64,000 nt of DNA from an uncultured Acidimicrobiales bacterium (GTDB lineage: Bacteria; Actinomycetota; Acidimicrobiia; Acidimicrobiales; SZUA-35), in the NCBI GenBank assembly GCA_938029215.1, contig CALHFG010000014.1, forward strand, positions 1 to 64,000, given 5' to 3'. Positions 45,108 to 57,950 of the stretch are shown piece after piece. Under the pieces are notes generated by a model. It saw only the letters and a list, made by a program, of their open reading frames with translations. It did no database searches and was not told the origin of the DNA. Each line of letters starts with the position of its first letter. The stretch's first letter is position 1. The position numbers and the translations under genes were made by a program.

Positions 45108-46046
45108 ATGGACTTTGGTGTTGAACAGACCTCGGACGTGGAGCCCGATATCCGGATGCTGCTCGACAATCCCGGTCCGGTCGGTCCGGACATCTTTACC
45201 GCGAGCCCGGAAGAGATTCGTGCCCACTACCGAACGACCCGCAATCCCAAGGCCATCCCCGAGGTGGCTGAGGTTACCGATCGCACCTTCGAAGGGCCCG
45301 GTGGACCGGTGGCGGTTCGCGTGTACCGGGCCGACACCACCGACCACGCGGCCCCCACGCTGCTGTGGTTTCATGGCGGCGGCTGGGTCGTTGGCGACCT
45401 GTTCACAGCTGAGCTCCCGGCTCGAGCCCTGTGCCGCGACGCACGGTGCACGGTCATCAGCGTCGACTATCGCCTTGCCCCTGAAACCAAATTTCCGGGC
45501 GCCTATGACGACTGTGTCGCGTCGCTCGCATGGGTTCGGCAGAACGCGTCGGAGCTTCAGGTCGACGCGGAGCGGTTGGTGGTCGGGGGTGATAGCGCAG
45601 GCGGTAACCTCGCCGCCGCTGTTACGGTTGCCGACCGCGACACCGGGGGAGATCTGAAAGGTCAGCTGTTGATCTATCCGGTGGTCGAAGCCGAACCCGA
45701 CTGGACGGCTCGAGACACTCGGGGCGAGGACTATTTGCTCGGAGGCGTGGCCATGGACTGGTTCTTTGACCAATACGTTGCGTCGGAGAGCGACCGATCC
45801 GATTGGCGTCTCGCGCCTGCACTAGCGAACCTGGAACGCACCCCTGCGGCCTTCATTCAGACCTGCGGATTCGATCTGCTTGCAGCAGAAGGTCTGCGCT
45901 ATGCCACCAAGTTGCGGACTGCAGGAGTCGACGTGACCGTCGATCATCTTCCCGGCTCCGTCCATGCGTCGTTTGCAATGGAGATCGATGCCGGCGTGCG
46001 CGGTCGTGCCTCGGCGGCCGCCTGGTTGCGCGAGATCTTTAGCTAG
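45108..46046 (+). CDS. Hormone-sensitive-lipase-like alpha/beta hydrolase (esterase)
   Basis: 312 aa. Oxyanion motif WFHGGGWVVG (HGGG), nucleophile elbow VVGGDSAGGNLAAA, acid/His later: TCGFDLLAAEGLRYATKLRT and HLPGSVHASFAM. It is a carboxylester hydrolase of the HSL type, cytoplasmic, no signal peptide. It overlaps the MurD2 gene tail to tail by 8 bp. Confidence 0.92.
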   Translation: MDFGVEQTSDVEPDIRMLLDNPGPVGPDIFTASPEEIRAHYRTTRNPKAIPEVAEVTDRTFEGPGGPVAVRVYRADTTDHAAPTLLWFHGGGWVVGDLFTAELPARALCRDARCTVISVDYRLAPETKFPGAYDDCVASLAWVRQNASELQVDAERLVVGGDSAGGNLAAAVTVADRDTGGDLKGQLLIYPVVEAEPDWTARDTRGEDYLLGGVAMDWFFDQYVASESDRSDWRLAPALANLERTPAAFIQTCGFDLLAAEGLRYATKLRTAGVDVTVDHLPGSVHASFAMEIDAGVRGRASAAAWLREIFS

Positions 46047-47334
46047 AAAGAACCGCAGCTTCAAACGCCGCTGATCGGTTCGACCAGTTCCCGTGCTGAG
46101 GCGGGGTCGGAGCCGCCGGGCTGAACAACACGGTGGAGTGCTGCCGAGCGGCGGTGCGAATGAGTGCTACCGCGCTCTCTACATCCGGCGCGTGGAGTTG
46201 CTGCTCGATCACAACGTCTGCTGCAGTGAGATCTGCCACGAGATCAGCTCCGTTATCTGGAACTGCGACGATCGATACGGATTGCGTGGAAGACCGGAGC
46301 GCTTCTGCCAACGGAGCGGGCGACACTTTGCGGTCGATCCCGCCGAGAATGAGCCAGAGGTGATCGTCGGCGAATGCTGCCACAGCCGCAGCCGCGCCCG
46401 ATGGATTCGAAGCCAGCGAATCGTCGAACCAACGGTGACCGTCTTGGGAGTGGATTTCCCGCAGCCGCCCGACCATCGCGGGAAGATCGAGGAGCGTTTG
46501 CGCCGGGTCGCGTACCACCACGGCGCCAAAATCGGCTTGAAGTCGCTCCGCTGCGGCGAGGGCGAGGCGAGCGTTCGAGGCCATGTGCGCTGGCAGTTCG
46601 CTGAGGCGATCAGGGGTGTCCGGGGTCTCGACGACGAAGGCGTTGGAATGAGCGGACACCAGTCCGTCGAGATCGGCAATTGTTAGAACACGGGAGGCCT
46701 GGTGGATCGCTGCCAGTTTGTCGGCGTGATAGCGCTCCACCGAACCGTGCCAGCTGATGTGGTCCTCACTGAGGCTCGTGAGAATCGCAAGGTCAGCCCG
46801 GTGCGTGAAATCGACGGCCTGGTAGCTACTGACCTCACAGACCATCACGGTCCCTGCTGGCGGAGGTTGCACGGACCAGATTGGCGTGCCAATGTTGCCG
46901 ACCAGTTCGCTGTGGGGAAGGAGTGCGGCCAACATCCGCGCCACCGTGCTCTTGCCCTTGGTGCCGGTGATGATCACGGTCGGGAACCGGTCTCCAAAGG
47001 TAGTGAGCCACAGGTTGATCGCGGTCGTTACCGATTGGATGGGTGTGCCGTCCAGGGCTCGCGCGACATCTTCTCGATACCGCGGAAATCCTGGCGACCG
47101 GACGACAAGTCTGTTCGGCGAAGGGGACTCTGCAACCCAGTTGGAAACCGCGCCGACCGAAGCTCGATAGCGCGCGCATTCCTGGCGTATGTGGTCGGGA
47201 ACGGCGTCGATGTCATCCACCCACACACGAACCTGCGACGCGTCGGTCAGATGGGGGAGCAGAGCCATGTTGTCTATCCCTGCCCCGAGCAGGTCTACGG
47301 AGCGACCAGCGATCAGAGGGTCGAACTCCGTCAT
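46039..47334 (-). CDS. murD2: MurD2-type ligase (UDP-MurNAc-L-Ala : L-Glu)
   Basis: 431 aa. Mur-ligase central domain with ATP loop VIITGTKGKSTVARMLAALL, EVSSYQAVDFTHRADLAILT and SLSEDHISWHGSVERYHADK; N-terminal part has GRSVDLLGAGIDNMALLPHL. It is MurD-like but shorter and lacks other dcw genes nearby. Because it follows a MurL gene, with the start overlapping its stop by 4 bp, it most likely adds L-Glu to UDP-MurNAc-L-Ala, as MurD2 does in Xanthomonas. The usual D-Glu-adding MurD should be elsewhere or absent. Confidence 0.82.
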   Translation of the reverse strand: MTEFDPLIAGRSVDLLGAGIDNMALLPHLTDASQVRVWVDDIDAVPDHIRQECARYRASVGAVSNWVAESPSPNRLVVRSPGFPRYREDVARALDGTPIQSVTTAINLWLTTFGDRFPTVIITGTKGKSTVARMLAALLPHSELVGNIGTPIWSVQPPPAGTVMVCEVSSYQAVDFTHRADLAILTSLSEDHISWHGSVERYHADKLAAIHQASRVLTIADLDGLVSAHSNAFVVETPDTPDRLSELPAHMASNARLALAAAERLQADFGAVVVRDPAQTLLDLPAMVGRLREIHSQDGHRWFDDSLASNPSGAAAAVAAFADDHLWLILGGIDRKVSPAPLAEALRSSTQSVSIVAVPDNGADLVADLTAADVVIEQQLHAPDVESAVALIRTAARQHSTVLFSPAAPTPPQHGNWSNRSAAFEAAVLSS

Positions 47335-48707
47335 CGTGTTGTCCGCTGAGTGGCGTCAAGAAGACGCCGCTGGAACGCCGGCGGCGCCGGGCGAGGTGTA
47401 AGCCCGAGATCGTCCGAACCCAGCTCAGCCCACTTGCCCAACTGCAACGCCGCCTCGGCCGAAGGACGCAGCCGTTTGACCAGCAGGTGATCATCCCAGG
47501 CAGGGTCCGACGAGACCGTCAGCAGTGCGTTCGCTGCGTCGACCCGTTCGCCAACGCACTCGAGCGGCTTGTCCGGGGCCCACAGCCGAGCGAACTCCTG
47601 CTCGAGCTCGTCGGTGTCGAGCAAGTTGGCACCGAAGACCTGCCGCAATCGCTTGGGCTTCAATTCGGTGGCGAGCATGAGATAGGTGAACACGCACTTT
47701 GGGCACTCGCCGCACCATCGCTGGGGGGCTTCGTCGTCCGCTCCAGCGGTTCGCCCGGCGAATGCTCGATTGCAGCTGACCAACACATCGAGCGCTGCGT
47801 CCTGCCCGCTCAGCAGCGAGATGATGTCTGGTTCCTCGACAGTGCGCAACCACGAGAAGTATCGGATGTCGATCCCCGCGGCAGTGATCGCGCGGTCGAA
47901 CAACGCCTCGAACGTTGCGCCCTTCGACCACTGATGGTTGACCGCCCTGCCCGCCGAATTTGAGTGTTGGGAGATGAGCGTCGGCTCGTTTGCGGCCTCT
48001 TCGTTGGCCAGAACAACCGAGGTGAAGTTGTCACGGGCGGCGAGGGCAACCGAGATGGCCGAGACGATAGCGGTGATGGGAATGTGGCCGTTGAGACGGT
48101 CGGGTCGGGTGAGTTCGTCTAGCTGGTCCACTCTTCGGGCAACGGAAATCAACTCGTGCCCCAGCACCTCTGCGACTGCTCTGTGGGTGGAGGTGCCATT
48201 GATAGTGACAGGCCGAGCTTCAGGAAGCAGGCTGAGAACCACGGTTGAATCCTTGCCGCCACCGAAGGGAACCAGCGGGTGTCCGATCGTTGATTCCGTG
48301 GGCGGTTCCTCCTTGCGGGCTCGTGGTCCACCGGCCCACTGAAATGTGGTGACGAGCGGAATCGGCAGCTGGTTGACGTAGGCGAACTCACGAAGTCCGT
48401 GGTCGAACAGCTCGGTGACGAGAGCCCGTTCCTCTTCGGAGGTGGCGACCTCAACGATCACCGTCTGGGGAGCCTGGGATTTGTAGTACGACGTTCCGGC
48501 TACCAATAACAGTAGGTTGACCGCAGCATCGAAGGCGGCTGATTGCTGAGCGGCGTCGGCTGGCGGTAGTTGGATTCGTTCGGTGAACCAGGGCCCTTCG
48601 GAGAACCCGTAGTGCAATTCGATTAGGCCGGTCTGGGCGTTGCTCGTTGCTGAGCGAATGTGGAACGGACTCGAGCCCTGTTTCATCGTCCCCGCGGCGT
48701 CGGTCAC
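47331..48707 (-). CDS. murL: MurL-type UDP-MurNAc-L-Ala-L-Glu epimerase
   Basis: 458 aa, GTG start. Motifs of the MurL family: TSYYKSQAP (the YK site), VPFGGGKDSTVVLSLL near 147 (PP-loop-like, ATP binding), FSWLRTVEEPDI, SCNRAF and RWCGECPKCVFTYLMLA near 332. MurL epimerises the terminal L-Glu of UDP-MurNAc-L-Ala-L-Glu to D-Glu in an ATP-dependent reaction, replacing glutamate racemase. It is upstream of and coupled to murD2. A TAGACT -10 box is 6 nt before the GTG. Confidence 0.87.
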   Translation of the reverse strand: MTDAAGTMKQGSSPFHIRSATSNAQTGLIELHYGFSEGPWFTERIQLPPADAAQQSAAFDAAVNLLLLVAGTSYYKSQAPQTVIVEVATSEEERALVTELFDHGLREFAYVNQLPIPLVTTFQWAGGPRARKEEPPTESTIGHPLVPFGGGKDSTVVLSLLPEARPVTINGTSTHRAVAEVLGHELISVARRVDQLDELTRPDRLNGHIPITAIVSAISVALAARDNFTSVVLANEEAANEPTLISQHSNSAGRAVNHQWSKGATFEALFDRAITAAGIDIRYFSWLRTVEEPDIISLLSGQDAALDVLVSCNRAFAGRTAGADDEAPQRWCGECPKCVFTYLMLATELKPKRLRQVFGANLLDTDELEQEFARLWAPDKPLECVGERVDAANALLTVSSDPAWDDHLLVKRLRPSAEAALQLGKWAELGSDDLGLTPRPAPPAFQRRLLDATQRTTR

Positions 48708-48782: not shown

Positions 48783-49976
48783 ATGTTGGAGCCCGAAGAG
48801 CAAGCTGAGCACTGGCGGGATGCCGGCGCGCTCGAGGACAGCTACGACGTCGTGATTGTTGGCGGTGGTCTCCCAGGCGTCGCGCTGGCGTACTACCTGG
48901 CGACTTCGCACTCGGTCAGTAACGTCGCGGTTTTGGCGAAGGGATCGCTCTTCGGCCCGCCGAACGCGTCGCCGTACGCCCTCGTGTCGCCTCAGCCGTG
49001 GTGGCCCTTCGGGGCCGAATTTGGGCTGCGTAGCAGTCCGCTGTTCGAGCAACTGCAAGCCGAGACCGACGGTCCAGAGCTGTTGACCGAACGGGACCGG
49101 GTGGTGATAGCTCGAAACAACGACGAGCTGAATTCGTGTCGCTGGCGCACCGAGCTGTCCAAAGCCCATGGAACGGACGCTCCAATAATCGACGCCACCG
49201 CGGTGCAGAAACTGCTCCCCGGCGCGGGGAACGCCAACACCCCTTCCATCGTGGGTGGTCAAGTGATTCCGCGAGGCGGTGTCTTGCGGGTCGATCGGGC
49301 GATCGCTGCCTATGCGTCCGGAGCGCACGAGGCCGGTGTCCGACTGGCCGAGGGCACCCCGGTCGTCGATGTGGAGGTTGAGAACGGGCGGGTTCGTGGC
49401 ATCCGGACAACAGCTGGATTGGTGAGAGCGCCGGTGGTAGTCGTCTGTGCGCCCGGATCATCGTCGCTGGTAGCGCAGATGGCCGGGGTCGCGTTGCCGT
49501 TGCTGACGCGTCGACACGAATCGATGCTCACCGAATCCACCGACGTCGACATCGAGGTGGTCGCCGGATTCGAATCGGACGACATCGTGGTCGCACCGGT
49601 CGATCAGGGCAGAACGCTCGTGACCGGTGTGACGTCCCATTTCGGGACCTACTCCTCCGAGCCTTCGCTAGACGCTCTTGACCGGCTGGCCACGGGAGCC
49701 CTCGCTGTACTCCCCGACTTGGCCGGTACGCGGCTGCACCGCCACTTTCGCTGCTTGATCGATACGACCGCCGACGGTCGCCCGCTGATCGGTACGACCA
49801 CAGTCGAAGGGGTGCTGGCAAATGTGGGATGGGGTGCTGACGGAACCGAACTGCTTCCGGCCGTCGTGAGTGAACTGGCAGCCTCGATTGCACGCAACGA
49901 GCTATCGCCCTTGCTCGATTCGTTGTTGCCGAGTCGTTTCGATCTCGCTCGCCCCCATCGATTGGCTGCCTCGTGA
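48783..49976 (+). CDS. soxB: Sarcosine-oxidase beta-subunit-like FAD oxidoreductase, divergent
   Basis: 397 aa. Dinucleotide motif YDVVIVGGGLPGVALAYYLA and VSNVAVLAKGSLFG follow the SoxB plan, and the C-terminus has DTTADGRPLIGTT. Two changes: the FAD-side loop normally NTGRN is ASPYALVSPQ, and the segment that carries the covalent-FMN His in heterotetrameric enzymes (RHDAVxWxYA) is RVDRAIAAYA, with Val for His. Family enzymes oxidise N-methyl groups of sarcosine. Stop overlaps the next GTG (GTGA). Substrate is uncertain. Confidence 0.8.
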   Translation: MLEPEEQAEHWRDAGALEDSYDVVIVGGGLPGVALAYYLATSHSVSNVAVLAKGSLFGPPNASPYALVSPQPWWPFGAEFGLRSSPLFEQLQAETDGPELLTERDRVVIARNNDELNSCRWRTELSKAHGTDAPIIDATAVQKLLPGAGNANTPSIVGGQVIPRGGVLRVDRAIAAYASGAHEAGVRLAEGTPVVDVEVENGRVRGIRTTAGLVRAPVVVVCAPGSSSLVAQMAGVALPLLTRRHESMLTESTDVDIEVVAGFESDDIVVAPVDQGRTLVTGVTSHFGTYSSEPSLDALDRLATGALAVLPDLAGTRLHRHFRCLIDTTADGRPLIGTTTVEGVLANVGWGADGTELLPAVVSELAASIARNELSPLLDSLLPSRFDLARPHRLAAS

Positions 49977-52366
49977 GTACGCCAGCGCCTCGTCGGCTTC
50001 CGGTTCAACCGGGTGAACTGATCGATCGGACGGTCCCGGTGAGCTTCCGCCTCGACCGGACGCCCATGACCGGATTCGAGGGTGACTCCATCGTCTCGGC
50101 CGTGAGCGCAAACGGAAAGAGATCGGTATCGAAAGCTGGCGGATTCTTCAGCGACGATGTCTGGGACCCAAGGTGTCTCGTCAGAGTCGATGGTGAGCCC
50201 AATGTGCGAGCGGGCCACCGGCGAGTGGTTGAGGGCATGGTGGTCGATTCCCTGCCACGAGCCCAGCCCGGCGGGCGACTCCCTCAAACCCTGGTTCGGC
50301 TCCAGGACCGAATTGGCAGGGGAGTTGCGGCCGATTCGATCCATCCGGTCAGGGTTGGTCGCCAAACGGTTCACGTTGACGTTCTTATTCGGGGCGGCGG
50401 CCCAGCGGGCCTTGCCGCAGCGGTTGCGGCCGTCCGCGAAGGAGCGCGGGTTCAGGTGGTTGATCATCGCCACTACCTGGGCGGCCACCTCCGTTGGGGT
50501 GACGATTCCGATCGAGCTCTCGCCCAGGAACTCGAAGCCGCCGTTCGAGCCCAACCCGATATAGCGGTTTTGCTTGGAGCGTCGGTCGTCGGTCCCCTCG
50601 AAGACGGATGGGCCTTGGTGAGCCAGCAGCAGGTGGACGGGTTTGACGACTATCTCTGGGCGTATCGCGCCGGGTCCTACGTGGAGTCGGCCGATCTTCG
50701 AATCGCGTCACCGAGGTTCGAAGGTGGCGATGAGGCCGGAGTCATGTCCGCCGAAGCGGTGCGCCGGCTGATCAACCTGTATGCGGTATTGCCGGGGGAT
50801 CGAGCCGTTCTCGTGGGTGGAACGAGCGAGGCCGATGCTGCCCGAGCGGACATGGAACGCGTTGGCATCGATGTGGTTCAGGCGCTCGACCCGCGGGAGG
50901 ATCCGCGGTCGATCGAATCGGTCTCGAAGTCAAGAAAGTCGCTCCAGGTGAAGCTGTCCGATGGATCTTCCGTCGACGCTGATCTTGTTGTTGTGGGCAA
51001 AGAGTGGACCCATTGGGCCGAGCCGGAATCGAACAGCGCCCTCTTGACGGGCCGGGCAGTCGTAGGGGTCCCTCGCCGTGGGGATCGGCAACACGAGTCG
51101 TTGGTAGCACACGGCGTCGCTACCGGGAGGCTGGCCGCACGACGAGCTATCGCTCAACGCCAGCGTGAGAACCGGCTCACGCCCGGTTCGCAAACCTCCG
51201 CGGAACAAGGGGTCACTTGGCCGACCGATACTCGGCCATTCCGCAAAGCCGTCGACCTGGGACCAACCGAGTCGGGGCTCGGCGTTGCGCCAACGTTGGG
51301 AGCACTTGCCGGAGCTGGCAGTCAAGGATCGTGCGGTCGTCCGCGCCATGAGAGCGCCGTTCAACCTTGGCTCGAGAACAACGGGGCGGTTCAGACCGTC
51401 GTCGCGGGCCGGGTGAGGACCGAGCACTTTGGCGATCCGCTCGACGAGGTTCGTAAGGCGCGATCTGGAGTCGGCGTCCACACGGTGGAGTCGAACGCGA
51501 TCCTCTTGCTCAGCGGCCGCAGCGCCGGCGCGCTCCTTGGGTCGTTGGCCAAAGACTGGGCGGATCTCAAGCTCGGCCAGTTGCGAGTTGGCGAAATTCG
51601 TGCCCTCGGCTCGTCGGCCCTTCGGGGGTTTGCCGGGGCGCTGACTAATGAGTCCTTCGTTCTCACGGTGCCGACCGAGTTCGAATCGTTAGCCGTTCAG
51701 GTCGGACGTCGCTGGATCGCCCGCCACGACCCCGCCGGTGATACTTCGATCCACCCGATGACGGCGGGCTACACCGGAATCCGGGTGAGCGGCCCGAACG
51801 CACTGGACCTTGTCAGTCGTCTGAGCGATGGAATTGTCACCGATTTTCCACCTGGGCGTCTGGAGCGACTGTGGTTGGCTGGTGCGGCAGATTGCCTTGT
51901 CATGCGCCCGGCTATCGGGATCGATCCGTTCCTCGAGCTGTATGTGCCAGCAGGTTTCGGAAGGCATGTGTGGGAGATGATGTTTGAGCTTTCGACCGGC
52001 GAGTGCATTACTCCTGTGGGCTCGAGAGCCGATCGAATTCTTCAGTTGGAGACGGGTCAACTGTGGGTGCCGGTTGGTAGCGACTCCCCGTGGAGCGGGT
52101 CGACCGTAGTGGAGCTAGAGACGGAGGATCCTTCCCTCGTACCCCAAGAATCGTGCCGAATTGTCTCGGGTGAGGGAGTTCAAACCCTCGGGAGGGTGTT
52201 GGTGGCCGAGTTCTGCCCGTCCATCAAGAGATCGCTCTGTCTCGCAGAGATTGCACCGCAGCCCGCTGGCGCCGTTGAATCGTTGATGGTGGTCAATCCC
52301 GACGGTGAGCGGATCAGCGTCCGCGCTCGAACGAAACCCCTCCAACCGGTGGTGGCAGATGTTTGA
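49973..52366 (+). CDS. soxA: Sarcosine-oxidase alpha-subunit-like protein
   Basis: 797 aa, GTG start, shorter than typical SoxA (about 950-1000 aa). Residues 20-100 correspond to the N-terminal ferredoxin-like NAD region (FEGDSIVSAVSANGKRSVSK) without its Cys. Residues 135-400 are an NAD/FAD-binding oxidoreductase unit (LIRGGGPAGLAAAVAAVREG, VVDHRHYLGGHLRW). From about 430 comes the GcvT/aminomethyltransferase part (APTLGALAG, ENNGAVQT, TAGYTGIRVSGPNALDL, ITPVGSRA). The last part would pass formaldehyde to tetrahydrofolate. I checked for a frameshift at the junction near 51300 and found the frame intact. Confidence 0.8.
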   Translation: MSTPAPRRLPVQPGELIDRTVPVSFRLDRTPMTGFEGDSIVSAVSANGKRSVSKAGGFFSDDVWDPRCLVRVDGEPNVRAGHRRVVEGMVVDSLPRAQPGGRLPQTLVRLQDRIGRGVAADSIHPVRVGRQTVHVDVLIRGGGPAGLAAAVAAVREGARVQVVDHRHYLGGHLRWGDDSDRALAQELEAAVRAQPDIAVLLGASVVGPLEDGWALVSQQQVDGFDDYLWAYRAGSYVESADLRIASPRFEGGDEAGVMSAEAVRRLINLYAVLPGDRAVLVGGTSEADAARADMERVGIDVVQALDPREDPRSIESVSKSRKSLQVKLSDGSSVDADLVVVGKEWTHWAEPESNSALLTGRAVVGVPRRGDRQHESLVAHGVATGRLAARRAIAQRQRENRLTPGSQTSAEQGVTWPTDTRPFRKAVDLGPTESGLGVAPTLGALAGAGSQGSCGRPRHESAVQPWLENNGAVQTVVAGRVRTEHFGDPLDEVRKARSGVGVHTVESNAILLLSGRSAGALLGSLAKDWADLKLGQLRVGEIRALGSSALRGFAGALTNESFVLTVPTEFESLAVQVGRRWIARHDPAGDTSIHPMTAGYTGIRVSGPNALDLVSRLSDGIVTDFPPGRLERLWLAGAADCLVMRPAIGIDPFLELYVPAGFGRHVWEMMFELSTGECITPVGSRADRILQLETGQLWVPVGSDSPWSGSTVVELETEDPSLVPQESCRIVSGEGVQTLGRVLVAEFCPSIKRSLCLAEIAPQPAGAVESLMVVNPDGERISVRARTKPLQPVVADV

Positions 52367-52922
52367 GGTCGCGCAGCCAGCTTCACCTTTTGGCGCTATG
52401 CCAGAGGGACCGGATTCGGTCGAAATCGAGGATGCGTCATCACTCACCATGGTGCTGTTGCGCGGCGCGAAGACGTCCAACGTGGCGGTTCAGCTCTCCG
52501 GGGTCGGCCTTGGCCAGACCGTCATGCGCGGTCCTGTTCTGATCGCACGTGCCACGTTGTCCGAATGGCTCTATTTCGGCACAGCCGATGACGTCGCCCA
52601 TGCGATTGCCGAGCTCGATCTCGCCGGGCCCACTTCGATCGTGGATCTCTCCCACGCCCGAGCTCGGTTGCGGCTGACAGGGCCGGGAGCCGCGTCATGG
52701 CTTCAGCAGCGGTCGGCAATCGATTTCGACAACGACTCGTTTCCGAACCAGCGGGTCACCGTGGTCCAGATCGCCACTGTGCGATGCGAGGTCATACGAG
52801 CGGACCAGGGCTCTCAGCGATCGTTCATCGTTGCTTTCGACCGCACCTTGGCGCGATGGATGATTGACTTAGCCGGCAGCGCGAGCCCGGGTGAGCCAGC
52901 GATCCACGTCGGTGCGATGTGA
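52359..52922 (+). CDS. soxG: Sarcosine-oxidase gamma-subunit-like protein
   Basis: 187 aa, ATG overlapping the end of the soxA-like gene by 8 bp. GcvT-N-type fold with IVDLSHARARLRLTGPGAAS, LQQRSAIDFDNDSFPNQRVT and a C-terminal AFDRTLARWMIDLAGSA. SoxG stabilises the heterotetramer. Its last 54 bp overlap the converging betaine-type binding protein gene. No soxD lies in the operon. Confidence 0.78.
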   Translation: MFEVAQPASPFGAMPEGPDSVEIEDASSLTMVLLRGAKTSNVAVQLSGVGLGQTVMRGPVLIARATLSEWLYFGTADDVAHAIAELDLAGPTSIVDLSHARARLRLTGPGAASWLQQRSAIDFDNDSFPNQRVTVVQIATVRCEVIRADQGSQRSFIVAFDRTLARWMIDLAGSASPGEPAIHVGAM

Positions 52923-54032
52923 TTCGATCCACTCGGTCGCATGCCGGGCAACATCGGCCGGAGTGTCCTCGCCAGCCAACATCTTGACGTTCTGGAACGA
53001 CACGTCGAGCACGCCGATCTTCACCTGCTTCAAGAGTTCGGCAGCTGCAGGCTCTGCGGCCAAGAAGTCTGAATTCGCGGTGACCACGATGTCTGACGGG
53101 CTGAAGCCCATGGTGCAGGGGGACAAACCGCATTGGTCGGCGGGGAGATCGGCGGCGACGTTCTGTCCCGGCCCCGGGTTCTCAACGCCCAGCCACATGG
53201 CATTCTCACCCGGTGTGAGTTGGGTGATAAACGGTCCGGGAGTCCACACGTACGCCAGGACCGGCTCTCCCTCTTCGGCCCGTGCCACTTGAGCTGCAAA
53301 AAGATCGCCGTGCACACCCTTCATCTGCTCAAGGACATCGGACCAACCGTTGCTCTCGATAAGGGTGTCGATCACGCCTTCGCAGCCCCAGCCCACGTCG
53401 CAGCCGGCGATTTCTGCCAGTCCGTTGCCATCGCTATCGAACTCGGCGCGGATCTCTGGATCGTTGGCGATGTCGTCGAGGGTGGAGATGCCAAGCCGGT
53501 CGGCCGTTGCGGTATCAACCAGGAACCCTTGTAGTCCGCCGAGCACCATCTGTTGGCCAACGAACTCGACCTTGTCGCCGATGAGGCCACCGCCGGGGGC
53601 GGTCTGTTCGAAGAACGCCCCCTGCACGATTGGCCAGGTGTTGGCCCAGAAGTCGTACTCGCCGTCGGCGAGCGCAGGGTAGAACTCTTCGGGCGCGAGT
53701 GCGGTGCCGCGGTCTACTTCGTGGCCCAGTTCCTCGAGTAGCTGGGCATAGATTTCCGCTTGCATGGCGCCGCTGGACCAATTGGCCCTGGCCATGCTGA
53801 TCGAGCTGCGCGGGCCGGGCTCGGCGGTTGTGGCGTCGTCGCCGTCTGACTCGGTGTCGTCGAAGGCCAACCCGTCGTCGTCGGCGGTCTCGGAGGTGCC
53901 GCCTACGATCAGTTCTCCGTCGCCCAACAACTCGCCGTTGGGGCCAGCCCCGATGGTCGTGCCTGCGCAGGCAGAAGCGATCAGCGCCGCTAGGGCGAGG
54001 AAGCCGCTGATTCGTAGGTGCCGAGAATGCAT
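52869..54032 (-). CDS. Glycine betaine/proline-type ABC substrate-binding protein
   Basis: 387 aa. Signal peptide with Cys near residue 22 (LAALIASACAG), then about 55 acidic residues, then the ProX/OpuAC domain: MARANWSSGAMQAEIYAQLL and LADGEYDFWANTWPIVQGAF; further Trp in GENAMWLGVENPG. It binds quaternary ammonium compounds. The cognate permease and ATPase are not in the window. Next to a sarcosine-oxidase-like operon, a role in feeding betaine breakdown is plausible. The 3' ends overlap by 54 bp. Confidence 0.85.
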   Translation of the reverse strand: MHSRHLRISGFLALAALIASACAGTTIGAGPNGELLGDGELIVGGTSETADDDGLAFDDTESDGDDATTAEPGPRSSISMARANWSSGAMQAEIYAQLLEELGHEVDRGTALAPEEFYPALADGEYDFWANTWPIVQGAFFEQTAPGGGLIGDKVEFVGQQMVLGGLQGFLVDTATADRLGISTLDDIANDPEIRAEFDSDGNGLAEIAGCDVGWGCEGVIDTLIESNGWSDVLEQMKGVHGDLFAAQVARAEEGEPVLAYVWTPGPFITQLTPGENAMWLGVENPGPGQNVAADLPADQCGLSPCTMGFSPSDIVVTANSDFLAAEPAAAELLKQVKIGVLDVSFQNVKMLAGEDTPADVARHATEWIESHRTDVDRWLTRARAAG

Positions 54033-55436: not shown

Positions 55437-55535
55437 CTTTACCCATGCGCACTGATTCTCTAGGGTCTCTCTCAGACGGGCCCAATACGGTTACTCTGGG
55501 CCTTCGGCGAGTACCAAATTTCATTGGGCGTGACT

Positions 55536-57950
55536 ATGAACAAGCGTGTTTCAACCATCTTCTTTTCCTTTTTGCTCGTTTTGGGCATTCTTGCGGTGCC
55601 CTCACCGGCCGCTGCGGAACTTGGAGACAACAACAACCTCCCGTGGGGAGTGGACGGAACCAACCTTCCCGATAACTCCGCTCGGATCCGAACCGAGGTG
55701 TGGGCCATCGAGCAGATCGCCGATCGGATCTTCCTGGGTGGCCGGTTTCAGGAGGTCACCGATGGTCAGGTCTCGATCGGCCAACCGTTTCTCGCCGCAT
55801 TTGACGCTGGAACCGGACAATACATCAGTTCGTTCACACCACAACTCGATGACGTTGTCCATGCGCTCGCTGCCTCGCCCGATGGATCTCGACTCTTCGT
55901 CGGCGGAAACTTCACCTCCGTCAACGGCCAGGCCATCGATGCCATCGTTGCGCTCGACCCCATCACCGGCGCCATCGACTCGTCATGGACCGGTGACTTA
56001 AACGGTGCTCCATCGGTTCGCAGCATGACCGTGCTTGGCGACTGGCTGTATGTGTCGGGCAGTTTTGGAGCGGTCGTCTCTAGTACGGGGAACAACGCGG
56101 CGAAGGGAGCCATTCGGTTCGATGTGACGACCGGGGGACACGACGCCGACTGGCGGCCGATCCTTACCGGCGGCGCCGTCTGGGGAATCGCTCCGAGCCC
56201 CGACCTTGACCGGGTCTACATGGCCGGCTACTTCGAGGAAGTCAACGGACAGCCCGTCGTCGGTGGCTTTGCAGCCGTCTCGTCTATCGACGGGTCCCTG
56301 GTGCAGGGCGTCCAAGACATCAACATCAACACCACCAGTTCGAGCCGCCAGTACCTCTACGACGTCGTTGTCGTGAACGGATACGTGTGGATCGCTGGCT
56401 CTGAACACTTCGTGCAGGTGCTCAACGAAAGCGACCTTTCACTTCATCGATTCCACCTTGCCGATCCCCGCGGTGACTATCAGGATCTCGAAGTTGTCGG
56501 CGACCGGGTGTATGCCGGTTGCCATTGTCGAAACAGCGCCACGATGCAGAGCGCTGAGGGCGTCATCTGGTTCCGAAATCCTCCCCCCGGTGAGCAGAGC
56601 GCTCCGCTGATCGCAGAGGGACCGACCTCGTGGGTGGCTGCGTTCGATGCCATCACCGGTGAATGGATTCCCACTTTTGTGCCCGATATTGAGGCGGCAA
56701 GAGCTGGCGTGTGGGCGATTCATGGAGACTCCAACGGCTGTGTATGGTTCGGCGGCGACCTCACGTTTGCCGGAACCGACTCGGTCGACAGCGTTATACG
56801 TCTTTGTGAGGACGGTTCCCTCGATACCGAGGTTCCATCGATCCCGGGTCCGGTGCAGGTCGGTGCGATCGGCGCAGACTCGGTAGATCTCAGTTGGGCT
56901 GCTTCCACCGACAACGTCGGTGTAACCGGGTACCAAATCTTCGATTCGTCAACGAATTTCATCGTGGGATCGACATCGACTAACTCGGTCACGCTCACCG
57001 GGCTCGCACCGGGGGATTACAGCGTGTACGTGAAGTCCTTCGACGCCGCAGGTAATCAATCCTCTCGAACGAGCTTCCGTTCCTTCACCGTTACCGGCGT
57101 GGCCATCGATGATCAACGGCCCTCGGTTCCGGGAGCCATTCAGGTGGTTTCGGTGGGCGCCGACAGCGTCGAGCTTGCCTGGAACGAATCCACTGACAAC
57201 GTCGGTGTCGCCGGCTACCGGCTGTATGAGGCAGGAACGAACAACCTGGTGGTCGAGGTCCCCACCAACTCCGCCACGCTGACCGGCCTGGCCGCGGGGT
57301 CCTACAGCCTGTATGTCAGAGCATTCGACGCGGTTGGCAACGTTTCCTATCGCACCGGATTCAGGAACTTCACCGTCACCGGAGCCGTGCCCGACACCGA
57401 GCGACCTCGAGTCACCAGTGGGCTCATGGTCGACGCCGTCGGCGTCGATTCGATCACGATGTCCTGGACGCCGGCGACCGACAACGTCGGCGTAACCGGG
57501 TATCGCATCTACGATGCCGACACCAATGCCCAACTGATTCAAGTGACCGACACAACCGTGACCTTCGACTCGCTGGCCGCAGGAACCTATCGCTTCTACG
57601 CCCGAGCCGAAGATGCCGCAGGCAACCTTTCATACCGGACCGGAATCCGGACCGTGGTCGTGGTCGGTTCAACCGACACCCAACGACCGAGCGTGCCTGG
57701 CGCCATCGTGGTCGACAGCGTTGTTGGTGAGACGGTGGCCCTTTCGTGGGGGCCAGCCACCGACAATGTTGGCGTTGTGGGCTACCGAGTGTTCAACTTC
57801 GATGGTCGCGCGATCCTCAGCGAAACCAGTGCGCCAAGCGCGGCCTTCGATCTTCCAGCCGGGACCTACCAAGTCTTTGTTAAGGCATTCGATGCGGCCG
57901 GCAACGAGTCCTACCGGACGGGGTTGCGCACGGTTGTGACACCTGGCTGA
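55536..57950 (+). CDS. Secreted delta-60 repeat / four-FN3 surface protein
   Basis: 804 aa. Signal peptide ISTIFFSFLLVLGILA-like, cut after PAAA (residues 1-27). Residues 30-420 are a beta-propeller of delta-60 type with FVGGNFTSVNGQAIDAIVAL, VYMAGYFEEVNGQPVVGG and CVWFGGDLTFAGTDSVD. Residues 430-804 are four fibronectin type III modules, each with S/ATDNVGVxGY; units are about 95 residues. No membrane anchor or LPXTG is seen. It resembles extracellular adhesins or sugar-binding proteins; no catalytic residues are recognised. The start is the ATG at 55536; a TTG at 55524 is an alternative. Confidence 0.88.
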   Translation: MNKRVSTIFFSFLLVLGILAVPSPAAAELGDNNNLPWGVDGTNLPDNSARIRTEVWAIEQIADRIFLGGRFQEVTDGQVSIGQPFLAAFDAGTGQYISSFTPQLDDVVHALAASPDGSRLFVGGNFTSVNGQAIDAIVALDPITGAIDSSWTGDLNGAPSVRSMTVLGDWLYVSGSFGAVVSSTGNNAAKGAIRFDVTTGGHDADWRPILTGGAVWGIAPSPDLDRVYMAGYFEEVNGQPVVGGFAAVSSIDGSLVQGVQDININTTSSSRQYLYDVVVVNGYVWIAGSEHFVQVLNESDLSLHRFHLADPRGDYQDLEVVGDRVYAGCHCRNSATMQSAEGVIWFRNPPPGEQSAPLIAEGPTSWVAAFDAITGEWIPTFVPDIEAARAGVWAIHGDSNGCVWFGGDLTFAGTDSVDSVIRLCEDGSLDTEVPSIPGPVQVGAIGADSVDLSWAASTDNVGVTGYQIFDSSTNFIVGSTSTNSVTLTGLAPGDYSVYVKSFDAAGNQSSRTSFRSFTVTGVAIDDQRPSVPGAIQVVSVGADSVELAWNESTDNVGVAGYRLYEAGTNNLVVEVPTNSATLTGLAAGSYSLYVRAFDAVGNVSYRTGFRNFTVTGAVPDTERPRVTSGLMVDAVGVDSITMSWTPATDNVGVTGYRIYDADTNAQLIQVTDTTVTFDSLAAGTYRFYARAEDAAGNLSYRTGIRTVVVVGSTDTQRPSVPGAIVVDSVVGETVALSWGPATDNVGVVGYRVFNFDGRAILSETSAPSAAFDLPAGTYQVFVKAFDAAGNESYRTGLRTVVTPG
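56829..57947 (+). repeat. Four tandem FN3-coding repeats, unit 267-285 bp
   Basis: Units at 56829-57113, 57114-57398, 57399-57680 and 57681-57947. Each encodes one FN3 module; the stretch encoding TDNVGV and GY is the best conserved. Lengths of 285, 285 and 282 bp suggest duplication of one unit within the gene. Confidence 0.75.

Follow-up and report, generated by a model that had tools for sequence, protein, structure and literature searches.

Gene content of the locus and the place of soxD

The window (the whole 64,000-nucleotide stretch of DNA that was analysed) carries three overlapping genes on the + strand in the order B-A-G, all of them homologues of subunits of the SoxBDAG sarcosine oxidase (TSOX; 1VRQ, 2GAG). 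The first gene (48783..49976, ATG start, 397 aa) encodes a diverged homologue of SoxB, the TSOX beta subunit, as judged from PDB sequences, the NCBIfam soxB model TIGR01373 and a family alignment. It overlaps by 4 nt the second gene (49973..52366, 797 aa), which encodes a shortened homologue of SoxA (TSOX alpha) and whose start codon is the GTG of the GTGA overlap, and the third gene (52359..52922, 187 aa), a homologue of SoxG (TSOX gamma), overlaps the second by 8 nt. Comparison with PDB sequences matched B to TSOX beta (1vrq_B, E 5e-43; 2gag_B, E 1e-42) and A to TSOX alpha (1vrq_A, E 4e-23), and G gave a weak match to TSOX gamma (E 0.003). The curated NCBIfam cut-offs were missed by all three proteins (soxB 198 vs 529 bits, soxA 171 vs 1164, soxG 32 vs 144). 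A preliminary description of this DNA had reported that B overlaps A directly with no soxD inside the operon, and that SoxA is some 150-200 residues short. The ORF coordinates agree with the former, and the latter is correct since A is 167 aa shorter than the 964 aa of 1vrq_A.

The operon is flanked on both sides by conserved genes on the - strand. A MurL-like gene (47331..48707) lies outside the complex and fixes the locus as orthologous within the genus, and a ProX/OpuAC glycine-betaine binding protein gene (52869..54032) forms the opposite flank and is taken as context only. The MurL-like gene is paired with a MurD2-like gene (46039-48707 for the pair); its product scores 273 bits against a cut-off of 700 for a Xanthomonadales model, and within the 39-genome taxonomic family MurL was found in this genus only (5/39, E<=1e-60). 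Also beside the locus, and conserved there in genus-mates, is a gene (55524-57950) whose 808-aa product has three stretches of fibronectin type III.

The preliminary description also held that soxD was lacking, and this has to be withdrawn. A PF04267 search of the genome (G000, the source of the window) found soxD in two places, on contigs C116 and C98. The first belongs to an ordinary soxB-D-A set at the end of C116, whose soxA continues, together with soxG, on C34. The second is a diverged stand-alone gene of 69 residues (G000:C98, L080:6775-6984), unlinked to B-A-G and identified by both PF04267 (32.2 bits vs a cut-off of 27) and 2gag_D (E 8e-6). It is shortened in the middle, with residues 25-49 of 2gag_D skipped in an alignment that is itself short, though the CPTC and WHC..GC cysteine positions of TSOX delta, which we take to be zinc ligands, are retained. 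The four homologous subunits of TSOX are thus all represented, B, A and G in the window and D on C98, though not in a single soxB-D-A-G operon, since B overlaps A and D lies on a separate contig.

Two side observations concern soxD. The stop codon of the C98 gene overlaps the start of a fumarylacetoacetate-hydrolase gene (FAH, PF01557) by ATGA (L080:6775-7811 for both), and this soxD-FAH pair is common to genus-mates G009 and G012; on C98 an FMN-dependent dehydrogenase gene (PF01070) follows on the opposite strand. Additionally, in G014 the SoxD of an ordinary-looking B-D-A-G operon (L044:5937-6233, MLLVPTPFGPRN...WYDRVNRVYF) has lost all four cysteine positions and so probably binds no zinc.

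The genus sample consisted of five genomes, G000 and its genus-mates G009, G010, G011 and G012. A D-less B-A-G operon occupies the MurL/ProX locus in three of the four mates (G009, G011, G012). The flanks in G011 are those of the window, with DsbA-like, esterase, MurD2 and MurL genes on one side and ProX, glycosyltransferase (GT) and fn3 genes on the other; in the fetched stretches the agreement runs from esterase to fn3 in G012 and from MurL to GT in G009. The window operon is therefore orthologous to the D-less soxB-A-G of its genus-mates and occupies the same place on the chromosome. In all three of these mates an intact soxD stands alone at another place in the genome (G011:C69, G012:C52, G009:C104), so the split of soxD from the operon is a trait of the genus and is not specific to this locus. 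The operon and the remote soxD occur together in 4/4 genomes and are both missing in the remaining one, G010, which has the FAH gene with no soxD in front of it and, between ProX and MurL, an unrelated 527-codon ORF in place of B-A-G. This ORF (G010:C90, L078:8518-10211) resembles a SulP-type permease, as judged by eye.

Residue and domain losses in B and A

The losses in B were counted against all 28 non-window SoxB matches from the 39-genome family. All 28 have the His that carries FMN, Arg in SGRNT, Arg and Tyr in RSNY, Lys in GFK and an Asp or Glu at residue 52; the window protein has, in that order, Val, Ser, Ser, Pro, Glu and Ala at these six sites. Residue 52 (Ala52, 48936..48938, +) lies at the end of beta-2, where the acid presumably contacts the FAD ribose. 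In the FAD site of B the GGGxxG motif is present, while this acid and the SGRNT motif are lost.

The FMN-linked residue of 2GAG is H173, as given in PMC9045290. In the alignment with 2gag_B this residue corresponds to Val170 (49290..49292, +), as the preliminary description had proposed on the basis of a motif; this sequence comparison with TSOX beta puts a Val, and no His, at the FMN site. The covalent FMN attachment of TSOX is therefore not matched in B. Ser69 and Pro72 (48987..48998, +) take the place of the Arg and Tyr partners of the substrate carboxylate (Arg52 and Tyr55 of monomeric Sox), and Glu356 (49848..49850, +) that of the Lys conserved in GFK, which corresponds to Lys348 of monomeric Sox; the latter change reverses the charge. 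These assignments come from the family alignment, with RSNY and GFK equated to the monomeric residues by motif matching, and the carboxylate roles of Arg52, Tyr55 and Lys348 are those described in PMC12582975. None of the three TSOX residues for the substrate carboxylate is thus present in B.

Much of B is nevertheless recognizable. In tables of identity and retention built from 19 of the 28 SoxBs (those in fetched regions), 57 of the 115 family-invariant residues are retained, including 17 of the 31 invariant columns in residues 1-75. With these residues and the GGGxxG motif, B may still carry out flavin chemistry. An AlphaFold2 model of B, made from an alignment with one relative (L032), had a mean pLDDT of 32.5, too low to be informative.

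The changes in A are larger. Among 348 columns invariant in 13 SoxAs, a count that omits the two contig halves of the ordinary SoxA of this genome, A retains 135, has deleted 78 and has substituted 135. The deletions include the KYHRP loop, a helical linker, the GQDTDG segment and most of the A3 domain (PF17806), which in TSOX alpha we take to sit at the FMN site. What is left of A3 is a remnant at 51233..51328 (+); of the 53 invariant columns of this region 8 are retained and 35 are missing, around residues 421-460. No PF17806 match was found in A by Pfam, compared to 92.5 bits for the A protein of G012, so this feature of TSOX is also gone. The GCV_T folate domain (51368..52060, +) is diverged, scoring 51.6 bits vs 207 in a genus-mate, and the DDGVTGRL and GFTGELSFE motifs, presumably the functional folate motifs of SoxA, are replaced. 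The best-retained element of A is the NAD(P)-type Rossmann motif (50378..50494, +; GGGPAGLAAAVAAV...VVDHRHYLGG), where 15 of 20 invariant columns in residues 131-180 are kept, as in TSOX. We know of no established role for the NAD site of SoxA.

In the genus-mates G009, G011 and G012 every SoxB residue examined is retained, and the A3 region is present in SoxA by alignment (the score of the G012 protein, given above, being from the one scanned); their sets are otherwise ordinary.

Coordinated divergence under constraint

The window's SoxB is 34% identical to those of the three mates that have the operon, which are 78-85% identical among themselves. The same pattern holds for SoxA (40% vs 74-77%), SoxG (39-44% vs 55-58%) and the remote SoxD (36-39% vs 71-78%). 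For MurL, ProX, GT, MurD2 and DsbA, the divergence of G000 from the mates does not exceed that among the mates themselves. Among the genes compared, only those for the four sox subunits, at two unlinked loci, have diverged in this way. Their joint divergence is the feature peculiar to this genome, the split of D itself being genus-wide. In maximum-likelihood trees A, G, concatenated A+B+G and D join the group with D-less operons and remote soxD (supports 100, 98, 99 and 93, respectively), and the B tree by itself leaves the placement of B unresolved. The branches leading to the G000 proteins have lengths of 2.54 (A), 1.42 (G), 1.53 (D) and 4.66 (B). The diverged form is known from one genome, a 144-contig assembly that is 94.6% complete, so selection is not measurable between two diverged copies.

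Constraint was judged against null models, which are simple in having one composition and no indels. The reading frames of B, A and G contain no stops. When the B gene of G012 was mutated neutrally to 45% identity, a mean of 7.6 stops arose (100 runs, lowest 1), and at a milder 60% identity the mean was 5.6 (lowest 0). Neutral mutation of its A gene gave a mean of 15.6 stops at 52% identity (30 runs, lowest 10) and 9.3 at a milder 70% (lowest 3). In a second null, stops were forbidden and neutral runs (300 each) were taken to the observed identity. Columns that are always hydrophobic in the relatives are still hydrophobic in 81% of cases in B and 82% in A, compared to neutral values of 65% for B and 68% for A and a maximum of 76% for each. 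G, with 88% retained vs a neutral maximum of 91%, lies within the neutral range. Since there are no stops and hydrophobic retention exceeds that of all neutral runs, at least B and A continue to be constrained as folded proteins.

Possible functions and comparison with known systems

The interpretation that we find on balance probable is that this sarcosine oxidase has been retired from catalysis and persists as a folded, FMN-free complex that binds dinucleotides (NAD, perhaps FAD). It is suggested by the fact that all steps of TSOX chemistry with a residue signature are affected (carboxylate binding, covalent FMN, A3, folate) while the fold, GGGxxG, the NAD motif and the D cysteines are retained. 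Under this model the ordinary soxBDAG on C116/C34 would have taken over sarcosine oxidation, which would have left the diverged set redundant, and all four subunits would then have been rewritten together in this species from two unlinked loci. The covalent FMN site, A3 domain, substrate-carboxylate residues and folate-domain motifs would have been lost, and the folded cores, the GGGxxG of B, the NAD Rossmann motif of A and the cysteines of D kept. The four proteins probably still assemble, would contain no FMN and would not oxidise sarcosine, and the retained function may be binding or regulation.

A less probable alternative, though one that deserves some weight, is an active FMN-free oxidoreductase in which B uses FAD and acts on a substrate that has no carboxylate and may be a cationic amine, with oxygen or the NAD site of A receiving the electrons. 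The constrained folds, the GGGxxG and N-terminal invariant columns of B and the 15/20 NAD motif of A are consistent with this, and the charge is reversed precisely at the carboxylate-binding position (Lys to Glu; also Arg to Ser). However, B has also lost the SGRNT loop and the acid for the FAD ribose. That a betaine-binding protein gene adjoins the operon might also seem favourable, but the gene is conserved in G010 as well, where the operon is absent; this neighbour is therefore uninformative on substrate and was rejected as a clue. The preliminary description had proposed a different cofactor arrangement or another substrate. With the FMN His gone that proposal was fair, and it is strengthened by the loss of A3 in A and of the carboxylate Arg, Tyr and Lys in B, though its other premise, a missing soxD, did not hold. 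From the sequences it could also be imagined, at rather long odds, that an FMN-free four-subunit complex uses a charge-reversed B site to sense, or to act upon, an amine that is cationic or has no carboxylate, and relays electrons or a signal to A at its NAD site, the two unlinked loci that encode it having been rewritten together within a single genus.

Plain relaxed selection, in which the set is redundant with the ordinary soxBDAG, is drifting to loss and is intact by chance, seems unlikely. The same genome does have an ordinary soxB-D-A and soxG, all four subunits have diverged fast, and the whole set is missing from genus-mate G010. However, the simulations put about 23 stops in B plus A compared to zero found in B, A and G, hydrophobic retention in B and A exceeds all 300 neutral runs, the overlaps between genes are retained, and the D cysteine positions survive despite the deletion. 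An ordinary sarcosine oxidase that merely goes without soxD, as the B-A-G order and overall homology to TSOX might suggest, is highly improbable, because the substrate, FMN and folate residues are all lost and a remote soxD exists.

The diverged set is related to known systems as follows. It shares with TSOX homologous B, A, G and D subunits, the B-A-G order, the DAO fold family of B and the Fer2_4, Rossmann and GCV_T regions of A, and differs in its unlinked and shortened soxD, the His-to-Val change, the lost Arg, Tyr and Lys, and an A protein 167 aa shorter that is without A3 and the folate motifs. The sets of G009, G011 and G012 share its locus and its D split and group nearest to it in the trees of A, G, D and the concatenated subunits; there, however, the SoxB residues examined and the A3 region are intact, and the window B is 34% identical. 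The alpha-beta proline dehydrogenase PDH1 (1Y56), known for its non-covalent FMN, gave weak matches to B (53.8 bits) and A (33.9 bits), but window A has 797 residues with Fer2_4 and GCV_T compared to a 493-residue 1Y56 chain.

The pair formed within this genus is a natural before-and-after comparison, with three species ordinary and one without FMN, substrate and folate sites at the same locus, and it lets the parts of a multi-cofactor complex that serve catalysis be told from those that serve assembly. Because the NAD motif is the best-retained element of A, the case bears on the purpose of the SoxA NAD site. It also indicates that soxD is able to leave the operon yet evolve in step with its partners. 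A literature search combining sarcosine oxidase and pseudoenzyme returned no paper, and no comparable case was found within the reach of the literature searches.

Beyond the window, no close relative of the diverged B (E<=1e-66) was found in 397 genomes sampled from the order and 395 from the class, and none of the diverged A (E<=1e-112) in the 397 from the order. These searches scored the top few candidates per genome, and the two samples overlap; 292/397 and 268/395 genomes, respectively, were >=90% complete with <=5% contamination. No SoxB relatives were found by a scan of viral contigs. One scan of genome contigs yielded only a Chloroflexi locus (25% identical), and a comparison of B with plasmids returned 801 records, all <60% identical, with the ten matches listed at ~31%. 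In the stretches fetched around L039, L040 and L041 (G012:C155, G008:C251, G002:C89), where nothing matched the SoxA or SoxG of the window, SoxB and SoxD form a separate lineage, its SoxBs being 44-49% identical to other SoxBs.
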